Of a stretch of 64,000 nt of DNA, positions 35,376-57,564 are shown one piece after another. Position 1 is the stretch's first letter. Each line of letters begins with the position of its first letter. Position numbers and translations under genes: made by a program. Below the pieces are notes generated by a model that worked only from the letters and a program-made list of their open reading frames with translations, was not told the origin of the DNA and ran no database searches. Origin of the DNA: Herminiimonas sp. (GTDB lineage Bacteria; Pseudomonadota; Gammaproteobacteria; Burkholderiales; Burkholderiaceae_D); assembly GCA_027310305.1 (NCBI GenBank), contig DAIDBD010000107.1, positions 18,625-82,624 of the forward strand, given 5' to 3'.

Positions 35376-38300
35376 TTACTTTTTCCAGAATGCGAGTCGC
35401 GTCATCCAAGGCGTCCTTGTACTCTTTATATTGGGTTCCTCGTCTTCGTCACGGCGGTGGGCGATCTGGTACAACAGCGGCAACACCAATAACGTCAATA
35501 TCGTCGAAGAGAGGATGCCGCCAATCACGACGGTGGCAAGCGGACGTTGCACTTCCGCGCCGGTGCCGGTTGCAATCGCCATCGGCACGAAACCAAGCGA
35601 CGCCACCAGTGCAGTCATCAGCACCGGACGCAGACGGGTTAATGCGCCTTCGTGGATGGCTTCGTTGAGCGAGCGTCCCGCATCACACAAGCCGCGGATG
35701 AAGGCAATCATCACCAGGCCATTCAGAACCGCCACGCCCGACAAGGCGATAAAGCCCACGGCTGCGGAAATCGACATCGGTATGTCCCGCATCCACAACG
35801 CAATAATGCCGCCGGTCAGCGCGAACGGAATCCCGGTAAACACCAGCAAGCCATCCTTGACGTTACTGAACATCATGAACAGCAGCGTAAATACAAGCAG
35901 CAACGAAACCGGGATCACGATTTGCAGACGCTTGGTAGCAGATTGCAGGTTTTCAAACTGACCGCCCCATACCGTCCAGTATCCGGGGGGGACCTTGACT
36001 TGCTGTTGGATGCTCTGTTCAGCCTCTGTCACAAACGACCCCAAATCCCGTCCGCGCACATTGGCGCTGACGACGATGCGGCGCTTGCCTTGTTCGCGGC
36101 TGATCTGGTTCGGGCCCGGGGCGATTTCGAAGCTGGCCACCTCGCCCAACGGGATGAAGTTGGTTTGCTTGTCATTGCCATTGATTTGCGGAAGAGGAAC
36201 CGGCAAGCGCTTCAACGCATCAAGGTCGCTACGCAGATATTCCGGCAGCCTGACAATGATATCGAAACGCCTGTCCCCCTGAAACAATGTGCCGGCCTCG
36301 CGTCCGCCGGTCGCTGTTGCAATCGTCTCCTGGACATCACCCACGTTAAGCCCGTAACGCGCCGTTTTCTCACGGTCGATATTGATGGTGAGCATCGGCA
36401 ATCCGGTGGTTTGCTCAACCTTGACTTCGCTGGCGCCGGGCACTTTTCCCAGCACTGCCGAAATCTTTGTTGCGGTATCGCCGAGCACCGCCATATCGTC
36501 GCCGAATACCTTGACGGCGACATCACTTCTTACCCCTGAAATCAACTCATTAAACCGTAACTGAATCGGCTGGCTGAACTCGTAGGTATTGCCGGACAGC
36601 TGCGCGACAGTTTCCTGTACCGCGGCCAGCAGTTCATCGCGCGTCTTTTTGGGTTGCGGCCACTTGTCTTCCGGTTTCAACATGATGTAGCCGTCGGAAA
36701 TATTCGGCGGCATCGGATCCGACGCGACTTCCGCCGTACCCGTGCGCGCAAAGATCCGTACGATTTCCGGATGTTTTTCCTTGAGCGTTTTCTCCAGTTG
36801 CTGTTGCATTGCAACCGACTGACTGAGACTGGTGCCGGGTATGCGCAACACCTGGATCGCAAAATCGCCTTCGTTCAGGCTGGGCACGAATTCACTTCCC
36901 AGGCGCGTCCCAATCAGAATGGAAAGAACAATCATGATGCCGGCAAATGTGAACACGATCGGCTTGTTCGCCATGGCGCGGACCAGCAGCGGCTCGTAGC
37001 TTTTTTTCGCATAACGCATCAGTGCATTTTCTTTTTCACCGACTTTCTTTCCGATAAAAAGCGCAACCGCGGCCGGAATGAATGTCACCGACAAGATCAT
37101 AGCGCCCAACAGCGCGATGACGACAGTAAACGCCATCGGATGAAACATCTTGCCTTCAACGCCGGTCAGCGCAAAAATCGGCAGATAGACGATCATGATG
37201 ATCAACTGGCCAAACAAGAGGGGGCGGCGCGCCTCTTGCGATGCCGCGAAGACTTCATGGAAACGTTCCGAGCGCGTCAACGGTCGCCCATGATGCGCCT
37301 GTGCATGTGCAAGCCGCCGGACACAGTTCTCCACGATTACCACCGCCCCGTCAATAATGATGCCAAAGTCCAGGGCTCCGAGACTCAACAGGTTGGCGCT
37401 GACCTGGTTGGCCACCATCCCGGCAAAGGTGAATAGCATCGCCAACGGAATGACAGTGGCCGTGATGAGGGCTGCGCGGATATTTCCGAGAAATAAAAAC
37501 AAAATGGCGATGACCAGCACAGCGCCCTCGAACAGATTTTTTTTCACCGTGTTGATTGCCTTGTCCACTAGAACCGTGCGGTCATAAACGGTGATGGCTT
37601 TGATTCCCTCCGGCAGCGTCCGATTGATTTCCAGCATTTTCCTGTCGACCGCTTCCGACACTGTTCGACTGTTCTGGCCGATCAGCATGAAGACGGTGCC
37701 GAGCACGACTTCCCTGCCGTTTTCGGTGGCGGCGCCGGTGCGCAGCTCCCGCCCGATGTCTACTTCAGCCACATCGCGGATGCGAACGGCGACGCCCTGA
37801 ATATTCGCCAGCACGATGTTGCGGATATCGTCAAGCGAGCGCACCTGTCCCGGCGCTCGTATCAGGTATTGCTCGCCGCGCTTTTCGATATACCCGGCTC
37901 CGACATTGCCGTTATTTTTTTCCAGCGCGACCACGACGTTTTGCAAGGTCAAGCCGTAAGACGACAGCTTGGCGGGGCTGGGCGCGACCAGAAACTCTTT
38001 GGCATACCCGCCAATCGAATTGATTTCGGTCACGCCCGGCACGTTGCGCAACTGCGGCTTGATGATCCAGTCCTGAATTTCGCGCAAGTCGGTCGGCGTA
38101 TACGGCGTGCCGTCGGGCTTTTTTGCGCCATCGTTTGCCTCAACCGTCCACAGGTAAATTTCCCCGAGACCGGTCGAAATGGGTCCCATCGCAGGGTTGA
38201 TTCCGGGCGGCAGTTTGCTTTTGGCCTCCTGAATCCGCTGGTTCACCAGCTGGCGCGCAAAGTAAATGTCGGTGCCATCTTTAAAGATCACAGTGATTTG

Positions 38301-38573
38301 CGACAAGCCATAGCGCGACAGCGAGCGGGTTTGTTCCAGATTTGGCAAGCCCGATATGACGGCTTCGATCGGAAACGTGATGCGCTGCTCGGTTTCGAGC
38401 GGTGAATAGCCGGGAGCCGCCGTGTTGATTTGCACCTGCACATTGGTGATATCAGGAACTGCGTCGATCGGTAGCTGTTGATAGCTGTAGACACCATATC
38501 CGGCCATGCCGAGCACAGCCAGAATGACCAGCCATCGGTGCTCGATGGCAAAGCGAATAATGCGTTCAAACAT
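35376..38573 (-). CDS. czcA: Heavy-metal efflux RND transporter, CzcA/CusA family
   Basis: 1065 aa; FERIIRFAIEHRWLVILAVLGMAGYGVYSYQQLPIDAVPDITNVQVQINTAAPGYSPLETEQ; LGALDFGIIIDGAVVIVEN. Confidence 0.93.
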   Translation of the reverse strand: MFERIIRFAIEHRWLVILAVLGMAGYGVYSYQQLPIDAVPDITNVQVQINTAAPGYSPLETEQRITFPIEAVISGLPNLEQTRSLSRYGLSQITVIFKDGTDIYFARQLVNQRIQEAKSKLPPGINPAMGPISTGLGEIYLWTVEANDGAKKPDGTPYTPTDLREIQDWIIKPQLRNVPGVTEINSIGGYAKEFLVAPSPAKLSSYGLTLQNVVVALEKNNGNVGAGYIEKRGEQYLIRAPGQVRSLDDIRNIVLANIQGVAVRIRDVAEVDIGRELRTGAATENGREVVLGTVFMLIGQNSRTVSEAVDRKMLEINRTLPEGIKAITVYDRTVLVDKAINTVKKNLFEGAVLVIAILFLFLGNIRAALITATVIPLAMLFTFAGMVANQVSANLLSLGALDFGIIIDGAVVIVENCVRRLAHAQAHHGRPLTRSERFHEVFAASQEARRPLLFGQLIIMIVYLPIFALTGVEGKMFHPMAFTVVIALLGAMILSVTFIPAAVALFIGKKVGEKENALMRYAKKSYEPLLVRAMANKPIVFTFAGIMIVLSILIGTRLGSEFVPSLNEGDFAIQVLRIPGTSLSQSVAMQQQLEKTLKEKHPEIVRIFARTGTAEVASDPMPPNISDGYIMLKPEDKWPQPKKTRDELLAAVQETVAQLSGNTYEFSQPIQLRFNELISGVRSDVAVKVFGDDMAVLGDTATKISAVLGKVPGASEVKVEQTTGLPMLTINIDREKTARYGLNVGDVQETIATATGGREAGTLFQGDRRFDIIVRLPEYLRSDLDALKRLPVPLPQINGNDKQTNFIPLGEVASFEIAPGPNQISREQGKRRIVVSANVRGRDLGSFVTEAEQSIQQQVKVPPGYWTVWGGQFENLQSATKRLQIVIPVSLLLVFTLLFMMFSNVKDGLLVFTGIPFALTGGIIALWMRDIPMSISAAVGFIALSGVAVLNGLVMIAFIRGLCDAGRSLNEAIHEGALTRLRPVLMTALVASLGFVPMAIATGTGAEVQRPLATVVIGGILSSTILTLLVLPLLYQIAHRRDEDEEPNIKSTRTPWMTRLAFWKK

Positions 38574-38590
38574 GATTTATCTTCTCCGCA

Positions 38591-40180
38591 TCAATGTGCA
38601 TGACTTGCACTGCCTTTGCCGAGCTCCGCCTTGATGACGAAACTGCCGGCAGCAGCATATTGCACGCCCGGTTTGAGTCCCTTGACGATCTCGACGAGCT
38701 TGCCGTCGGTGCGGCCAGTGATGACCGGCTGCGCTACAAAGCCGCCTGGCACGCGCATGAACACCACCGGGTTATCGTTAACCGACTGGACAGCATCCGC
38801 TGCCACTGCGACCGGCGCATCCGCTTCACTGGCAGTGAGTTCGACATTGACGTATAGCCCGGGGCGCCAAGCCATTTGCGGGTTGGGCAACACGACACGC
38901 GCCTTGGCCGATCGGGTCTGTTCGCCGATCAATGAGCCGACATACGTTACCTTTCCCATAGCCTGGGAATCCGATGTTGTCGAGCGCACTACGGTGTCGC
39001 CGCCCATACGCACCTTGTCCAGATCCTTGGCAGGAACCACGATTTCAGCCCACACGGTACCGAGGTCGGACAAGGTAAAGATGTTCGCATCCTCTTTTAT
39101 GGATTCGCCTAGCGTGATGTGCTTTTCAACGACCATGCCATCGAACGGAGCGCGCACTTCAAACCGGTTCAGTCCTCCGCTTGCCGATGGATTCGCGCCC
39201 AGCGCTTTTAATTTCTGCTGTGCGTTTTGCAACGCGATCTCGGCTTCGCGCAAGTCTTGCTGCGCTTTCAGATAATCCTGCCGTGCAGAGATTTTTTCTT
39301 CCCATAACTGTTTTTCGCGGGCATAGGTTGTCCGCGCAAACTCGACACGCTTTTGTGCAGCTAGCAGCTCGCTTCGCTGCTCAGAAAGCGTGGTGCTCGA
39401 GAGAACGGCGAGAATGGCGCCTTTTTTGACAAGCTGGCCCAGGTTTGCCGGTACCGAATCGACAATGCCGTTAACTCTGGGAACGACGTGCGCGGTACGG
39501 TCTTCGTTGAATCGGATTTCACCGGGCAACTGCAAACTGCTTTTAATGCGCGCCGCGCCTGCGGTTTGCAATGTCACGCCGCTGGACTTCACCTGGGTGT
39601 CGGTCAACTCGATCTTGCCTTCTTCGTTGGCAAAGGAGAACAAGAATGACGCATTACCCCTTTGTGCGGCAATAGTGGCTTCAAATACATGGGGCTCTGC
39701 AATTGCAACCGTGCTTTTCAAGGCATCTTTTTCGGATGCAAAGGCAATTTCCTGCTTGTCCCCATCGGGCCGGTTCAGCGTTACAGATACCTTGGCCGCA
39801 GTCGGCGGCGAAGGCTTGCCCTTATCGCTTAAATAGATACGAAATCGAGCTTCACCGCCTTCTTCAGCCAATACTATTTCCAGGCCAAAATCAGCTTCGG
39901 TAAATAATTGCCCGCCATGCGGCCCTTTGACCGGGCCATCCGCATGATGCTCCTTGTCGGCATGGCCTTTTTCTTCCGCATGCTTGCCGGCATCCTTCGC
40001 GCCGTGATGTTCGCCGTCGGCATGATCTTTGGCATCTTCATGGCCGCCTTTTTCCGACGCGACAGCAGCGACAGCAGTGTCAGCTAGCCCTTTACTATTG
40101 TCCTTCAGCATTACAAACGCGCCGAACAGCACGCCTGCCGCGATCAGGGCAATGATCGCGATGATTTGTTTCTTGTTCAT
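38591..40180 (-). CDS. czcB: RND efflux periplasmic adaptor, CzcB-like, with His-rich N-terminus
   Basis: 529 aa; KGGHEDAKDHADGEHHGAKDAGKHAEEKGHADKEHHADGP; HlyD-family core. Confidence 0.92.
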   Translation of the reverse strand: MNKKQIIAIIALIAAGVLFGAFVMLKDNSKGLADTAVAAVASEKGGHEDAKDHADGEHHGAKDAGKHAEEKGHADKEHHADGPVKGPHGGQLFTEADFGLEIVLAEEGGEARFRIYLSDKGKPSPPTAAKVSVTLNRPDGDKQEIAFASEKDALKSTVAIAEPHVFEATIAAQRGNASFLFSFANEEGKIELTDTQVKSSGVTLQTAGAARIKSSLQLPGEIRFNEDRTAHVVPRVNGIVDSVPANLGQLVKKGAILAVLSSTTLSEQRSELLAAQKRVEFARTTYAREKQLWEEKISARQDYLKAQQDLREAEIALQNAQQKLKALGANPSASGGLNRFEVRAPFDGMVVEKHITLGESIKEDANIFTLSDLGTVWAEIVVPAKDLDKVRMGGDTVVRSTTSDSQAMGKVTYVGSLIGEQTRSAKARVVLPNPQMAWRPGLYVNVELTASEADAPVAVAADAVQSVNDNPVVFMRVPGGFVAQPVITGRTDGKLVEIVKGLKPGVQYAAAGSFVIKAELGKGSASHAH

Positions 40181-41478
40181 TATTTCTCCTGTGGATTCGT
40201 TGCGCTGCTTTGAGGCGCGTAAGGCGTTCCGACGAGTCGATCAATATCGGCTGCGGCGCGGTGTGTTTCCGACAGGGCGCGCAGATATTGAGATTTGGCT
40301 TGAAAGAATGTGCGTTGGGCATCCAGCACTTCAAGAAAGCTGAATTTGCCGAGTTCGAAGCCTTTCGTGGCGGCATCATAGGCGCTTTGCGCACCGGGAA
40401 GAATTTCCTGGCGCAAGAGGTCTGCCTCTTGGCGTGCAGCGCCAAGACGCCCATGCGCCTGCGCAAGTTCGGTATTGAGCCGCACTTCTGTCGCAACCAG
40501 TTCGTCTCTTGCCTTGTCTGTACGACGTAGCGACTCCAGTACATTGCCTTGGTTGCGATCAAACAACGGGATTGGAATGGAGACGCCGACAATGGCTTGA
40601 TTGCGTCCGAGTTGTTCATCCCGTCTTGCGCCGATGCTAAATATTACATCCGGTATTTGCCGTGAGCGCTCGACGCGGACCAAAGCTTGCCGGCGATCTA
40701 CTTCGATGCGCGCCCGCGCCAAACTGGGCGCCTGCTGCAATCGCTGCGTCAGATCGTCCAAAGCCGGAAGCGCCGGCAAGGCTTCCACCTGATCCACGGC
40801 GCGCTCGAAGCGCGGACTTGGGCTACCCCAAGTTGCCGCCAGACGCTTGCGCGCAACTTGCACGTCACTTGCGGCCTGGACCAATTCGACACGCCCCCCC
40901 GCTTCGGCCACCCGCGCGCGTGTTTCTTCGACGGGGGACACTTTACCGGCAAGAACGCGTCTGGATGCCGCGTTCGTCGCACGTTTCGCGAGCTCGACCG
41001 ATGCTTGCGCCAGCCGGTAACGTTCCTGCGCCGTGACGAGGTCATAAAATGCCGCCGTGACGACGGCGCGAATTTCGGAGCGTTTGCCGGCCAATTCAAT
41101 GGCCGAAGCATCGCGCCCGCGCTCAGCTGCGGTAATGCGTGCGGCCCGTTTGCCGCCCAACTCAATGGGCACATTAAGCTGGACCGTCCTGGTTCGGGCG
41201 GCACGCTGGGTGTCTTCCTGTGAGGCGCCTATCGAGGGGTTGGGAATAATGCCGGCTTGCCGGACTGACCCTTCGAGGGCATCTACTTCACGCGCCGCGA
41301 CAGCGATGTCCGGGCTGGCGCGCATGGCCAATTCCAGGGCAGCGGCTAATGAAAGCGGGCCGTCGGTTTCGGTTGCGTACGCTGGCATGAAGGCGCTACT
41401 GCCTGATGCGGCCGGCTGCGCCCATGCAGGCATGACTACGAATGCCGCTAAAGCAAGCGGCAACAACAAATTTTGCAT
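40180..41478 (-). CDS. czcC: TolC-family outer membrane efflux protein, CzcC-like
   Basis: 432 aa; signal peptide; ALELAMRASPDIAVAAREVDALEGSVRQAGIIPNPSIG. Confidence 0.92.
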   Translation of the reverse strand: MQNLLLPLALAAFVVMPAWAQPAASGSSAFMPAYATETDGPLSLAAALELAMRASPDIAVAAREVDALEGSVRQAGIIPNPSIGASQEDTQRAARTRTVQLNVPIELGGKRAARITAAERGRDASAIELAGKRSEIRAVVTAAFYDLVTAQERYRLAQASVELAKRATNAASRRVLAGKVSPVEETRARVAEAGGRVELVQAASDVQVARKRLAATWGSPSPRFERAVDQVEALPALPALDDLTQRLQQAPSLARARIEVDRRQALVRVERSRQIPDVIFSIGARRDEQLGRNQAIVGVSIPIPLFDRNQGNVLESLRRTDKARDELVATEVRLNTELAQAHGRLGAARQEADLLRQEILPGAQSAYDAATKGFELGKFSFLEVLDAQRTFFQAKSQYLRALSETHRAAADIDRLVGTPYAPQSSATNPQEK

Positions 41479-41573
41479 CGAATTCTCCTTGTTGAAAACA
41501 CAAAAGAATCCGGCAACGCGTGTTCGCGCCTAATCAAAAAGGAAGATATGGAAAACGGACGCTGCGTGCCGGA

Positions 41574-41921
41574 TTAAACGGCACGTATCCATTTCGGCCG
41601 CTCGGGCCGTTCGGTGCATGCGGAAGGGAGAAGGCTGGATGTAACGAATTCCTGCGCCGGGAGCATGGCATTAAAAAGACCTGCTGTTGCCGACACTGGC
41701 ATTATCCCAAAGCCGCCCAAATCACAGGAGGCGCAGTCATTATCGACTGCTGAGGAAGACGTGATTTTGGACTCTGCATCAACCTTGTCGTGTTGATGAG
41801 CATGATGGCCGATATGTTGCGCTGCCGTGCCGCTCTCGTGCTCGCAATAATTGTTCGTCACCGCCCAAGTGGCCTGGACTGAAAGCAGCAGTAATATGGC
41901 AAGGATAAAAATACGTCGCAT
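41574..41921 (-). CDS. Small His/Cys-containing exported protein upstream of czcC (CzcI-like)
   Basis: MRRIFILAILLLLSVQATWAVTNNYCEHESGTAAQHIGHHAHQHDK...; position as in czcICBA operons. Confidence 0.7.
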   Translation of the reverse strand: MRRIFILAILLLLSVQATWAVTNNYCEHESGTAAQHIGHHAHQHDKVDAESKITSSSAVDNDCASCDLGGFGIMPVSATAGLFNAMLPAQEFVTSSLLPSACTERPERPKWIRAV

Positions 41922-42489
41922 GCGGCGGCATTCTACGTATTTTTTCTGCAATGCGCAACCGATGTCCATGACGAACTTGCCAGCTCATGCGTGAAGCGAG
42001 GATGCGTCGCATGGAGAAACACTACTGGATCAATATATTGCTCTTGTCACGATCCTGTTCGCCCGCCCGGGAGTGTCAGGAATTTTGCGTGTCGGAAGTC
42101 GCTTGTCAATTTACGGCCTCCTCACAGGTGCGCGGCGAAGCGTTCGGCAAATAATATTGCAAACTGATTTTTCGCGGCACGCCATGTGATGAACGGCATT
42201 TTCCAGTTTTGGCGATGTTGCGCAAGGTCAGCCAGATCAATTTGGCGGTGCAAAGACTGCTCTGATTTTATTTTCCTGTGCAAGCTCGGTGCGATAGCGT
42301 CATTCACCCCTATGCAAAAATCTGAAGACTCCCGGATTTCAAAGGGCCGATTGAATTAAGCATTGGATGGTTGTATCTTGTGTAATGAATATTGTGCAAG
42401 ACCGTCTAATGCAATAACGGGTACAGCGCAAGCGCAGCGCTCCCTGTTCAAAACATTCCGACGAGCCAAACCACGAAAGCGTTTTTATC

Positions 42490-52777: not shown

Positions 52778-53242
52778 TCACATTCGCTGTCGAGCCTTGA
52801 GTATTTTGGGGAGAAGCCACCAAAACACACCAATCAGCGATGCGACGAATGCGGTCAAGATGTTGTCCACCGGGTCGCCGAACACTTCGGAGGTCACCAG
52901 ATGAGTACCGAGGGTCAACGCCAATGACAGTGCTACCGATCCGATTAAAATTTGGCGCGTTGCGAACTGCTTGAATTTCGCGCGATGCCTCAGCGGCCGC
53001 ATCATGCGATGCTGGATTGCCGGCGCGCTGAACATCACCAGGCTGGTGAGCGAGCAGAGGAAGGTCGCCAGGAAAATCCATCGCTGCGACTGCTCGATTT
53101 TAGCGAACCCCGCATTGAACGGCAAAGTAAGCAGAAAGGCGGTCAACAACTGGGCGCTTGGCAGCATCACGCGCAACCCGGACAGCATATCGGTCAGGTC
53201 GTTGACGTCGTGACCGTCGCTGTTTATCTCGTCATTCAACAT
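52778..53242 (-). CDS. DUF6328-like membrane protein
   Basis: 154 aa; LTDMLSGLRVMLPSAQLLTAFLLTLPFNAGFAKIEQSQR; four predicted TM helices. Confidence 0.75.
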   Translation of the reverse strand: MLNDEINSDGHDVNDLTDMLSGLRVMLPSAQLLTAFLLTLPFNAGFAKIEQSQRWIFLATFLCSLTSLVMFSAPAIQHRMMRPLRHRAKFKQFATRQILIGSVALSLALTLGTHLVTSEVFGDPVDNILTAFVASLIGVFWWLLPKILKARQRM

Positions 53243-53257
53243 TGATATCGTTTTGAA

Positions 53258-53809
53258 TTACCAAGGCCACATGCGCTGGAAAACGCCATCTTTATTGACT
53301 AAAAGGTGTTTCAACGCGGCAAGTGCATGGATACTGATAAGAACGACGAAAATCCACGCGATGATGGAATGGGCAGTGAAAAATTGCTCCATCAAGGCAT
53401 CATTTTTTGATGCCCAACCGGGCATTGGCAAACCGAAAAATGCGACATCTTCTCCACTGAATGATGATCCCAGATAACCGGTTAGAGGCATTAGCATCAA
53501 CAATCCGTAAAGGATGACATGCGTGTATTTTGCAATCGCTGTTTGCCAGGCCGGCGCAGTAGCCGGCGCAGTTGCGGGAGCTTGACCGATACGCCACCCG
53601 ATACGGAACACAACAAGTATGGCCGTCGTGATTCCGAGCGATCTATGCAATTCATGATACCAAACACTGCTCGGGTCTTTTTCAATTGAAAGCATGTACC
53701 ACCCCAAGCCGATCAGCGCCGGAACCAAAATGGCCAAGGTCCAATGGAAAAATATTGCAGGATTGCTATAACGAAATGGTGATTCCCGTGCCAAGGTGTT
53801 GTCTCCCAT
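53258..53809 (-). CDS. Cytochrome b561 family protein
   Basis: 183 aa; YSNPAIFFHWTLAILVPALIGLGWYM; HELHRSLGITTAILVVFRIGWR; HSIIAWIFVVLISIHALAALKH. Confidence 0.92.
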   Translation of the reverse strand: MGDNTLARESPFRYSNPAIFFHWTLAILVPALIGLGWYMLSIEKDPSSVWYHELHRSLGITTAILVVFRIGWRIGQAPATAPATAPAWQTAIAKYTHVILYGLLMLMPLTGYLGSSFSGEDVAFFGLPMPGWASKNDALMEQFFTAHSIIAWIFVVLISIHALAALKHLLVNKDGVFQRMWPW

Positions 53810-53860: not shown

Positions 53861-54262
53861 TTATTTTTCAAGCCGTGTGACGGTAAGGGCGCCATCGACC
53901 TTTTCGGCTCGGAATTTGACCATGTCGCCGGCTTTGACTTTATCAAGCATGGCCGGATCGGCCACACGAAACACCATCGTCATTCCCGGCATCCCGAGAT
54001 TGTCAAGCGGCCCGTGTTTGAGCGTGATCTTTCCTTGGGCAGCATCCACCTTTTTGACTTCGCCGGCGACCAGCGCATCCTGCCCCGGCTTTGCTTCCTG
54101 CATACCCTGCATCCCTTGCATGCCCTTCATTCCTTGCATGCCCTCCATCCCTTTCATGTCCGGCATGTTACCGGCGTGATTGGCCGCATAGGCCGTAAAC
54201 GGCAGGGCCGCAGCCATTAAAAATGCGATGGTCAATTGGTTCATGCGACGAGTACGATTCAT
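53861..54262 (-). CDS. CusF-like periplasmic copper-binding protein with Met-rich linker
   Basis: MNRTRRMNQLTIAFLMAAALPFTAYA leader; MPDMKGMEGMQGMKGMQGMQGMQ; GKITLKHGPLDNLGMPGMTMVFRVADPAMLDKVKAGDMVKF CusF fold. Confidence 0.92.
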   Translation of the reverse strand: MNRTRRMNQLTIAFLMAAALPFTAYAANHAGNMPDMKGMEGMQGMKGMQGMQGMQEAKPGQDALVAGEVKKVDAAQGKITLKHGPLDNLGMPGMTMVFRVADPAMLDKVKAGDMVKFRAEKVDGALTVTRLEK

Positions 54263-54396
54263 TTTGAAACTCCTAGGTTTTAAAAAATTGATGGCATCCA
54301 TGGGAAAAGCAGCGCGTACATAAAAAAGCCATGCGCGTCGCATTACTCCGATGAATGCACTTTAGCATTTTAGCCATTTCATCGATCTGACAAAGC

Positions 54397-54414
54397 AATT
54401 ACATTTATGTAATT
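54397..54414. promoter_or_regulatory. Putative copper-responsive operator (cusF-like operon)
   Basis: AATTACAT-TT-ATGTAATT perfect palindrome inside a 44-bp block (54372-54415) shared with the copA upstream region. Confidence 0.7.
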
Positions 54415-54594
54415 TGACTTTTTACAGTTTTTACATCATCGACTGCGGTTTGGCGCATAACGCGCCGCGCGGGCGCCATCGTGGCAACCGTCTTGCCCCA
54501 GGGCGATTGCATGAAGATGCGCATATTTATTGAGGTTAACCGTGATTGCCCTGCGTCTTGCCCCGCTCCGCCCCCACGGCAAAACTTTCCAGCC

Positions 54595-55335
54595 TTAAAA
54601 AATCAACCTCATCCCGGCCCGCAATCCCGTGGCGGCGCCTAAACCGGAGCCACCTTGCGCACGCGGATAAAACGTTCTGCTCAGTTCGACGTACGGAGCG
54701 ACTTTTCGGGTGAATTCATAGCGTACCTGCACGCCAAGATCGGCCCGATAAAGGCCGCTGCGCACCTCGGCACTGAGATTCGAGGCAGACCATTCTCCGT
54801 TGACGAAAGGCCGCACGATGAACCGATTCGTGATCAGAAAGTCATTCTCGAAGCGCGTGCGCGCCAGCATTTTTCCGTCGCTACGGATAAAGGCCTGCAA
54901 ATCCACATCGTATGCATAAGGAGCCAGCCCGCGCAGCCCGATCACCGCGTAATTTTCGCTGACCGGCTTGGCGTCATGGCGGATGCCGCCTTGCAAGTCC
55001 CAGAACGGAGCGATGTATCGGCTGTACAAGGCCTGCATTTCCACGACCTCGGTTCGGCCCTGGCGGCGATCGCCATTAAATCGCCACCAGAACCGGTTGA
55101 AGTCGCCGCCGATCCATCCCTCCGCACCCAGCGTCTGCAGCGAACCGGGCTGGTTGCGTATCTTTCCCGTATCGGCTTCAATCAAGGTGTAGGAATAAAT
55201 CGAATCGTCTTCAGATGCCAAAGAAGGCGCCGCGGCGCCCAGTCCGGCAAGGCATGCGACGATGCCGATAAAACGGGGGAAAACGGGTTTCATGGTTTTA
55301 TGCGCTGATTTGGAATTGGTTTTGTAGTGCGCCAT
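54595..55335 (-). CDS. copB: Copper resistance protein B (outer membrane)
   Basis: Start MAHYKTNSKSAHKTMKP overlapping copA stop; YSYTLIEADTGKIRN...WWRFNGDRRQGRTEVVEMQALYSRYIAPFWDLQGGIRHDAKP. Confidence 0.93.
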   Translation of the reverse strand: MAHYKTNSKSAHKTMKPVFPRFIGIVACLAGLGAAAPSLASEDDSIYSYTLIEADTGKIRNQPGSLQTLGAEGWIGGDFNRFWWRFNGDRRQGRTEVVEMQALYSRYIAPFWDLQGGIRHDAKPVSENYAVIGLRGLAPYAYDVDLQAFIRSDGKMLARTRFENDFLITNRFIVRPFVNGEWSASNLSAEVRSGLYRADLGVQVRYEFTRKVAPYVELSRTFYPRAQGGSGLGAATGLRAGMRLIF

Positions 55336-57209
55336 TACGCCACCTCCATGAGTTGGAACATGCCGGTGGCAGCGTGATAGAACAGGTGGCAGTGGAATGC
55401 CCATACGCCGTTATCTTCATACGTCGCATCAAGCTCGACCGTTTGCGCCGGCGAAACGATGATCGTATGCTTGCGCGGCGCATATTCGCCGTTGCCGTTG
55501 ACCAGTTCCATGAAGACGCCGTGCAAATGCATCGGATGTTCCATCATGGTGGTGTTGACGAACTTGATCCGGAACCGTTCGCCCAGTTGCACCTTGAACG
55601 GTACCGAATCGGAAAATTTCTTGTCGTTGATTGTCCAGAAATAGCGGTTCATGTCGCCCGTGAGGCGCACCAGAATCTCCCTTTGCGGCGGACGCTTGTC
55701 CTTGTTCGGATCAAGCGCACGCAGATGTTGATACTTGAGGCGGCGCATGCCGTCCGCATCGGGAGAGACGGTGATCCCGGAGGCAGAGGCTGCCGCAGCC
55801 ATGTTCATGCCGGCATGATCCTGCGTCTTTCCGGCTGGGCTGGCAGCCTGGGCGGACATGCCAGGCATGCCGGCCATTCCCGCCATGTCATTGGCGGCGC
55901 CCGGCGCCATCGGCTTGGCGGCGCCCATGCCAGGCATTGCATCAGGGGGGGCTGATGCACCGGGCGCCGGCATTTCCATGCCTTTCATGCCATCTGCCGG
56001 CGCCGGCGCATCCATGCCTGCCATGGAGCCGCTTGCGGGCGTATCGCCCATTCCATCCATCGATCCCATTCCCATATCCGCCATGGTGCGCACCGGATAG
56101 GGCCCCTGGGGCGGAATGTCGGCACTCATGCCGGGGCGAGGCGCGAGCGTGCCACGCGAGTAGCCGATGCGTGCAATGGTCGGCGCAAATATCGTATAAG
56201 CCCTGTCTTCCTTGGGTTCAATGATGACGTCGTACGTCTCGCCATTGCCGATACGGAATTCATCCACAACAACCGGCTGGATATTCTGGCCGTCCGCCTG
56301 CACTATAGTCATTGGCAGGCCGGGAATACGGAAATCGTACAAGTTCATCGGGGAAGCGTTGATCACGCGCAGCCGCACGCGCTCGCCCGGCTTGAACAGC
56401 GCAGTCCAGTTTTGGCCCGGGCGCTGGCCGGACATCAGGAACGACCATTCATCCCCGCCGTCGCTGTAATCGGTCGGGTCCATGCGCATCTTCGCCCATT
56501 CCATGCGCTCCGCCCAGATCGCCTTGCGCGCCTTTTCATCCGGAGCCGCCGCCAGTTTTTTCAAAAATTCCGGCGTAGTGACGCGGCGGTAGTTGTAGTA
56601 GCCATCGAGTTTCTTCAGGTTGGCAAGCACCTTCGGCGGCGGATCGTCGTTCCAGTCGGAAAGCATGACAACGTAATCGCGATCGAATTTGAACGGGTCG
56701 GGGGTTTTGGGTTCAATGATCAGCGGCGCGAACATGCCGGCCGCTTCCTGCAACCCTGCGTGGCTGTGATACCAATAGGTACCGCTCTGGCGCAATTTGT
56801 ATTGGTAGGTGAAAGTTTCGCCAGGACGTATGCCAGGGAAAGTAACGCCGGGGACGCCATCCTGCGAATTGGGAATCAACAAGCCGTGCCAATGGATCGC
56901 AGTCGTCTCGGCAAGGCGGTTGGTGACCCTGACGGTCACCTCGTCGCCCTCCATGAATCGCAGCAAAGGACCGGGCATGGTCCCGTTCAACGTGATCGCA
57001 TCCGCCTCGCGGCCTGTAATATTTACCTTGGTGTTGGCAATGGTCAGATCGAAGGATCGTTCAGGACGCGTTTTTGGAATTTCCACTGCCGTAATCGCGC
57101 CAAAGGCGCTGCTCCACGGCAGCAGCGCGGCGGCACCCAATGCGCCGCCTTGCGCCAGAAATTTGCGCCTTGATGTGCTTGAGAGGGTTTGATGTATGGA
57201 TTTTTTCAT
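55335..57209 (-). CDS. copA: Copper resistance multicopper oxidase CopA (Tat-exported, Met-rich)
   Basis: 624 aa; SRRKFLAQGGALGAAALLPW Tat leader; HWHGLLIPNSQDGVPG, YWYHSHAGLQEAAGM, HPMHLHGVFME, WAFHCHLFYHAATGMFQLMEV copper-site motifs. Confidence 0.96.
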   Translation of the reverse strand: MKKSIHQTLSSTSRRKFLAQGGALGAAALLPWSSAFGAITAVEIPKTRPERSFDLTIANTKVNITGREADAITLNGTMPGPLLRFMEGDEVTVRVTNRLAETTAIHWHGLLIPNSQDGVPGVTFPGIRPGETFTYQYKLRQSGTYWYHSHAGLQEAAGMFAPLIIEPKTPDPFKFDRDYVVMLSDWNDDPPPKVLANLKKLDGYYNYRRVTTPEFLKKLAAAPDEKARKAIWAERMEWAKMRMDPTDYSDGGDEWSFLMSGQRPGQNWTALFKPGERVRLRVINASPMNLYDFRIPGLPMTIVQADGQNIQPVVVDEFRIGNGETYDVIIEPKEDRAYTIFAPTIARIGYSRGTLAPRPGMSADIPPQGPYPVRTMADMGMGSMDGMGDTPASGSMAGMDAPAPADGMKGMEMPAPGASAPPDAMPGMGAAKPMAPGAANDMAGMAGMPGMSAQAASPAGKTQDHAGMNMAAAASASGITVSPDADGMRRLKYQHLRALDPNKDKRPPQREILVRLTGDMNRYFWTINDKKFSDSVPFKVQLGERFRIKFVNTTMMEHPMHLHGVFMELVNGNGEYAPRKHTIIVSPAQTVELDATYEDNGVWAFHCHLFYHAATGMFQLMEVA

Positions 57210-57432
57210 GAATATGCAACCCTGTTTTGAAGTCGTTCGTCGTTGCCTTGTTTATTTGAACCGGCCGTTGCCATAAACAAGAAAATAGTGACACATTATA
57301 GTTGCCCCCCGGAAAAATCAACTACCTGTCATTCGATCGGAAGCAGTTTATCTCGAGCTTCCTGAATAAATTTTATCCGTGCTGCGACCAACGTACCTTA
57401 CCGCCGCAGCCATTTCATCCATCTGACAAGAC

Positions 57433-57450
57433 AATTACATTTATGTAATT
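57433..57450. promoter_or_regulatory. Putative copper-responsive operator (copAB)
   Basis: AATTACAT-TT-ATGTAATT inside block 57408-57451, 41/44 identical to 54372-54415. Confidence 0.7.
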
Positions 57451-57564
57451 TAGCGTTCTGCAGATTTGTATCGCCGACCGGGATTTAGCATTAATAGGAT
57501 TTACGCAAGCCCGTTTTGAACCGGTGCGCGAAAGTTAAAATTTCAGGCTGGTTTTTCCTAGCTT

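Follow-up and report, generated by a model that had tools for sequence, protein, structure and literature searches.

The closest described counterpart of the elements reported here is the AgrR box, ATKACANNNNTGTMAT, which was defined by footprinting in Cupriavidus metallidurans, the copA2-copR2 site included, and was studied in a silver-resistant mutant (PMC7380067). Promoters with this box carry an in-phase direct repeat, a good -10 element and no -35 element, and the reported binding range of AgrR spans cop, czc, and prs promoters (PMC7380067). The cop box (or copper box) of CopR in P. syringae and of PcoR in the E. coli pco system is likewise an inverted repeat of about 16 bp that lies ahead of copAB or pcoAB and is bound by a copper regulator of the OmpR type. 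We analyzed a 64,000-nucleotide stretch of a Herminiimonas sp. genome (hereafter the window) in which two very similar 44-bp blocks precede two sets of copper genes. Judged from sequence, the twin blocks are very probably extended operators of the CopR/AgrR type belonging to two activator-dependent promoters, with a CopR encoded on another contig (C53) as the most likely regulator.

The blocks, at 54372-54415 upstream of a cusF-like gene and at 57408-57451 upstream of copAB (both on the minus strand), are identical at 41 of 44 positions, as the original prediction had it; when the two upstream regions were simulated 1000 times with an order-1 model, no pair of 44-mers exceeded 30 identities. 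The palindrome that the prediction had assigned to both blocks, AATTACAT-TT-ATGTAATT, is indeed exact in each (with up to 3 mismatches allowed, 0.01 occurrences would be expected in the window), and the 16-bp core of the AgrR box has no mismatch at either site. Across the whole genome (4.01 Mb, 129 contigs) the 14-bp core TTACATTTATGTAA was found, with at most one mismatch, only in these two blocks. Two extra half-sites per block had been missed, as had a -10 element equally distant in both promoters; these half-sites extend the conserved block beyond the palindrome. Each block consists of ATTACA-N4-TGTAAT and, in phase with it at steps of 11 bp, the half-sites TGTCA and TGAAA. On the plus strand these read TTTCA (54377-54381), TGACA (54388-54392), ATTACA (54398-54403), and TGTAAT (54408-54413) in the cusF operator, and TTTCA (57413-57417), TGACA (57424-57428), ATTACA (57434-57439), and TGTAAT (57444-57449) in the copAB operator. 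All three differences (54384, 54394, and 54395; 57420, 57430, and 57431) fall within the spacers between half-sites, which are identical at 13 of 16 positions.

The blocks lie upstream of two minus-strand units, copA-copB and cusF-cytochrome b561-DUF6328, whose gene identities were confirmed by Pfam and NCBIfam matches. The copA gene (55335-57209, start at 57209) encodes a periplasmic multicopper oxidase of the PcoA/CopA type (TIGR01480, 675 bits; cut-off 479) with the Tat signal SRRKFL and a Met-rich insert; the protein is divergent, with about 43% identity to its nearest relatives. The ATG of copB (54595-55335; outer-membrane copper resistance protein, Pfam CopB, 3.7e-46) at 55335 overlaps the copA stop codon (TAATG). 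In the second unit, the cusF-like gene (53861-54262; Pfam CusF_Ec, 5.8e-30) has an AGGAG ribosome-binding site before its ATG at 54262 and encodes 133 amino acids with a signal peptide and a Met-rich stretch. It is followed by genes for a 183-residue cytochrome b561 of the CybB (superoxide oxidase) fold family (53258-53809; Pfam, 5.5e-30), which matches E. coli cytochrome b561 (PDB 5oc0) with an E value of 9.5e-11, and for a 154-residue DUF6328 membrane protein (52778-53242; Pfam, 4.5e-27). Because the gaps are only 51 nt (cusF-b561) and 15 nt (b561 stop to DUF6328 start), the three genes are predicted to form one transcript. At 35376-41969 the window also holds an RND metal efflux operon of the CzcCBA type that includes a CzcI-like gene; it is not controlled by this operator.

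No copRS or cusRS pair is encoded in the window, where the sole match of the TIGR01387 type is a partial receiver match of 48 bits; this agrees with the original prediction, which had called for a trans-acting regulator encoded elsewhere. Such a regulator is supported by a CopRS pair on contig C53, where a third perfect box (C53:17932-17947) lies between divergent copR and cusF genes, 51 bp upstream of copR. The C53 regulator scores 357.8 bits against the cztR/silR/copR response regulator model TIGR01387 (cut-off 279.2) and its partner kinase 489.9 bits against TIGR01386 (cut-off 292.6). Against the E. coli CusR equivalog model NF007346 the regulator reaches 314 bits (cut-off 420), and by these scores it is a relative of CopR/CusR and not CusR itself. 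The same contig holds a second copper cluster (locus L016, 3996-14945) with copRS, two copies of cusF, genes for a TolC-like protein and a cupredoxin, and two further multicopper oxidase genes, one of them fused to DUF4396 and DUF2231 membrane domains.

Two more CopR-like regulators, on contigs C105 and C115, also exceed the TIGR01387 cut-off, and neither has a perfect box directly upstream; the C53 CopRS is therefore the best candidate and not the sole one. It is possible, though unlikely, that the boxes serve one of these two regulators, of the Czc/Sil/Agr kind, with silver, zinc, or cadmium as the signal instead of or besides copper. The breadth reported for AgrR, on cop, czc, and prs promoters (PMC7380067), would allow for this, and variant boxes of the form ATTACC-N4-TGTAAT do occur on C105, one of them about 1 kb upstream of the C105 regulator gene. 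However, the perfect ATTACA form stands at the C53 copR, whose product is the closest relative of the copA-linked CopR proteins, and the targets in the window are copper proteins. We infer that C53 CopR most likely binds the twin operators and that copper is the signal.

The original prediction would have been refuted by a palindrome recurring at many non-copper loci, but the genome contains only three perfect ATKACANNNNTGTMAT matches, the two in the window and the one on C53, all at copper genes. Eight sites match the extended operator when up to two mismatches are allowed: the two in the window, the C53 copR/cusF site, C53:259, C105:12002, copies on C102 and C105, and one on C65. C53:259 and C105:12002 are each upstream of a DUF4148 gene. 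The copper regulon, which had been described as local, thus extends beyond the window to the C53 copper cluster and probably to the DUF4148 genes on C53 and C105. No box was found at a second copA (on C1, the best-scoring copA of the genome), nor in the copA-b561 intergenic region of a relative (G378). Near-identical promoters with the variant box ATTACC-N4-TGTAAT-N5-TGTCA are present at C102:18309, C105:3785, and C105:12002 (L227-L229); one precedes a DUF4148 gene, and transposase-like reading frames lie downstream of the C102 copy.

The C65 site (C65:22242-22267; L226), an operator relative with one mismatch between genes for polyphosphate kinase and a PstS-like phosphate-binding protein, is probably a PhoB box, so that the direct-repeat part alone is not copper-specific. 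It illustrates how alike PhoB boxes and CopR-type operators look. That the window blocks themselves are PhoB boxes, or sites of another OmpR-family regulator unrelated to metals, is nevertheless very improbable: TGTMAT-N5-TGTCA does resemble tandem PhoB repeats, but a PhoB box does not include a perfect inverted repeat, relatives carry the operator next to copR and copA, and the window targets are copper genes whereas the C65 look-alike is at phosphate genes.

The CopR/AgrR-type reading is further borne out by relatives. A search of 196 genomes of the same family for ATTACAN4TGTMATN5TGTCA returned 29 rows in 18 genomes, and the reversed control returned none. Leaving out the own genome, 27 rows remained, which correspond to 25 distinct palindromes because two were read on both strands; 19 of the 27 lie beside a copR orthologue, nine of these between copA and copR. 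Because some sites are orthologous, these counts are not independent. The CopR orthologues beside the extended operator share 52-84% identity, and the exact core ATTACATTTATGTAAT is identical at several of the outside sites. Of the best 30 CopR orthologues from 299 genomes of the order, 15, the C53 gene among them, are preceded by an inverted repeat of this type at a distance of up to 400 bp, mostly together with the 11-bp direct repeat seen here. The position of the box, upstream of copA, cusF, and the C53 copR in this genome, recurs at copR and copA in relatives. A relaxed consensus was needed for these searches because the 14-mer had no exact match in 99 relatives, and among about 400 genomes of the order the own genome alone contained the strict TCTGACAA...TGTAAT pattern. 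DUF4148-like genes, recognized by sequence likeness only, follow the operator in relatives too.

Both window promoters have a predicted -10 hexamer on the minus strand 23 nt after TGTCA: TAAAGT (54359-54364) in the cusF unit, with transcription predicted to start near 54352, and TAAGGT (57395-57400) at copAB, with a predicted start near 57388 and a leader of about 180 nt. Across the 32 sites compared, TAnnnT stands exactly 23 nt after TGTCA at 28, both window sites included (22 of 26 distinct outside sequences and all six sites of the own genome); any other offset between 14 and 35 accounts for at most two sites. Here too the outside sites are in part orthologous and hence not independent. At 17 nt before the -10, neither window promoter shows a hexamer resembling a -35, and the layout, with a -10 present, a poor -35, and the box just upstream, is of the activator type. 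The sequence between operator and -10 has diverged in the twins while the 23-nt offset has been kept. A recent duplication of a short piece without retention of a regulatory role, as the high spacer identity might suggest if one operator was copied from the other, can be dismissed as highly improbable, since the differences are confined to spacers, the -10 lies outside the conserved block and keeps its offset despite the diverged intervening sequence, and the same operator is conserved in other genera.

The shared operator had been taken to place both cytochrome b561 and DUF6328 in the copper response. This holds better for b561, because its near relatives sit in copper clusters: one of 57% identity beside copAB in G378, one of 52% behind the C1 copAB cluster of the own genome, and one of 60% on a Janthinobacterium plasmid (J1-1), within a copper island. 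The b561 genes of this clade often adjoin, or are one gene away from, a gene of the VIT family (iron/manganese transporter-like) in copper clusters, as at C1:67000-71000 (L182), in G378 C12 (L183), and on the J1-1 plasmid (L143). CybB-type b561 of E. coli is described as a superoxide oxidase (PMC11869295), and by analogy the window protein could plausibly remove superoxide made by copper.

DUF6328 is linked to copper only through where it lies in this genome: of the 44 relatives (some on shorter contigs), none has CusF, b561, CopA, or CopB within about 7 kb, and its place in the regulon therefore looks like a recruitment private to this genome. A role as a general copper gene was rejected, as no copper gene or box lies near the 44 relatives, which come from named genomes, or near DUF6328 in 8 further genomes of the family. 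The AlphaFold2 model has four long helices (pLDDT 82) and no PDB match with E < 0.1, only weak Orai-like helix-bundle matches that are not meaningful, and DUF6328 was not mentioned in the literature searched. A Rhodospirillaceae MAG and Nevskia MAGs encode DUF6328 proteins (L067-L069) that resemble the window protein more closely (58-67%) than do the DUF6328 proteins from its own family, a hint of horizontal transfer. We lean, with modest confidence, towards DUF6328 having been recruited into the CopR regulon with CybB-type b561 and CusF, as an inner-membrane/periplasmic copper-stress module not described before.

It is well supported that the twin blocks are real, ordinary operators of a known kind with one unusual passenger gene, DUF6328. 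From its layout, the arrangement appears to be a textbook two-component metal promoter whose predicted targets are copAB and cusF-b561-DUF6328. In our model, a dimer of a CopR-family (OmpR-type) response regulator, most likely CopR of the C53 CopRS with its own box upstream of copR, would bind the inverted repeat ATTACA-N4-TGTAAT. One or more further subunits would occupy the in-phase direct repeats TGTCA and, weakly, TGAAA, in 11-bp steps ending beside the would-be -35 region. RNA polymerase would then be recruited to the -10 hexamer 23 nt after TGTCA, the palindrome centre lying near -53. Excess periplasmic copper would switch on copAB, for Cu(I) oxidation and outer-membrane handling, and with it cusF-b561-DUF6328, adding periplasmic copper binding and an inner-membrane di-haem protein, b561, that plausibly removes copper-made radicals; DUF6328 would be carried along.

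For CopR-type regulators in this family, these data provide a promoter model consisting of the extended operator, a 23-nt distance, and TAnnnT, and a model of this precision would make copper regulons readable from sequence. It also suggests a condition for functional tests of b561, of the DUF4148 proteins and, less strongly, of DUF6328.

Compared with the known systems, the window boxes are predicted near -53, whereas the AgrR core is centred near -43.5 at agrR and further upstream elsewhere, and on their promoter side the window operators carry as many as two direct repeats, unlike the AgrR box (PMC7380067). CusR/CopR sites of P. aeruginosa and E. coli are TGACA-N4-TGTCA, whereas the half-site in the window is ATTACA. 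In contrast to the cop box and CusR systems, one of the window operons under the box contains cusF, b561, and DUF6328. The CopR1/CopR2 regulon of P. putida likewise has unlinked copAB operons under CopR and several TGACA-like half-sites per promoter, but its members are limited to copAB and copRS, and the distances of its protected regions vary (PMC12428095); here, cusF-b561-DUF6328 is an added target and the spacing to the -10 is fixed.
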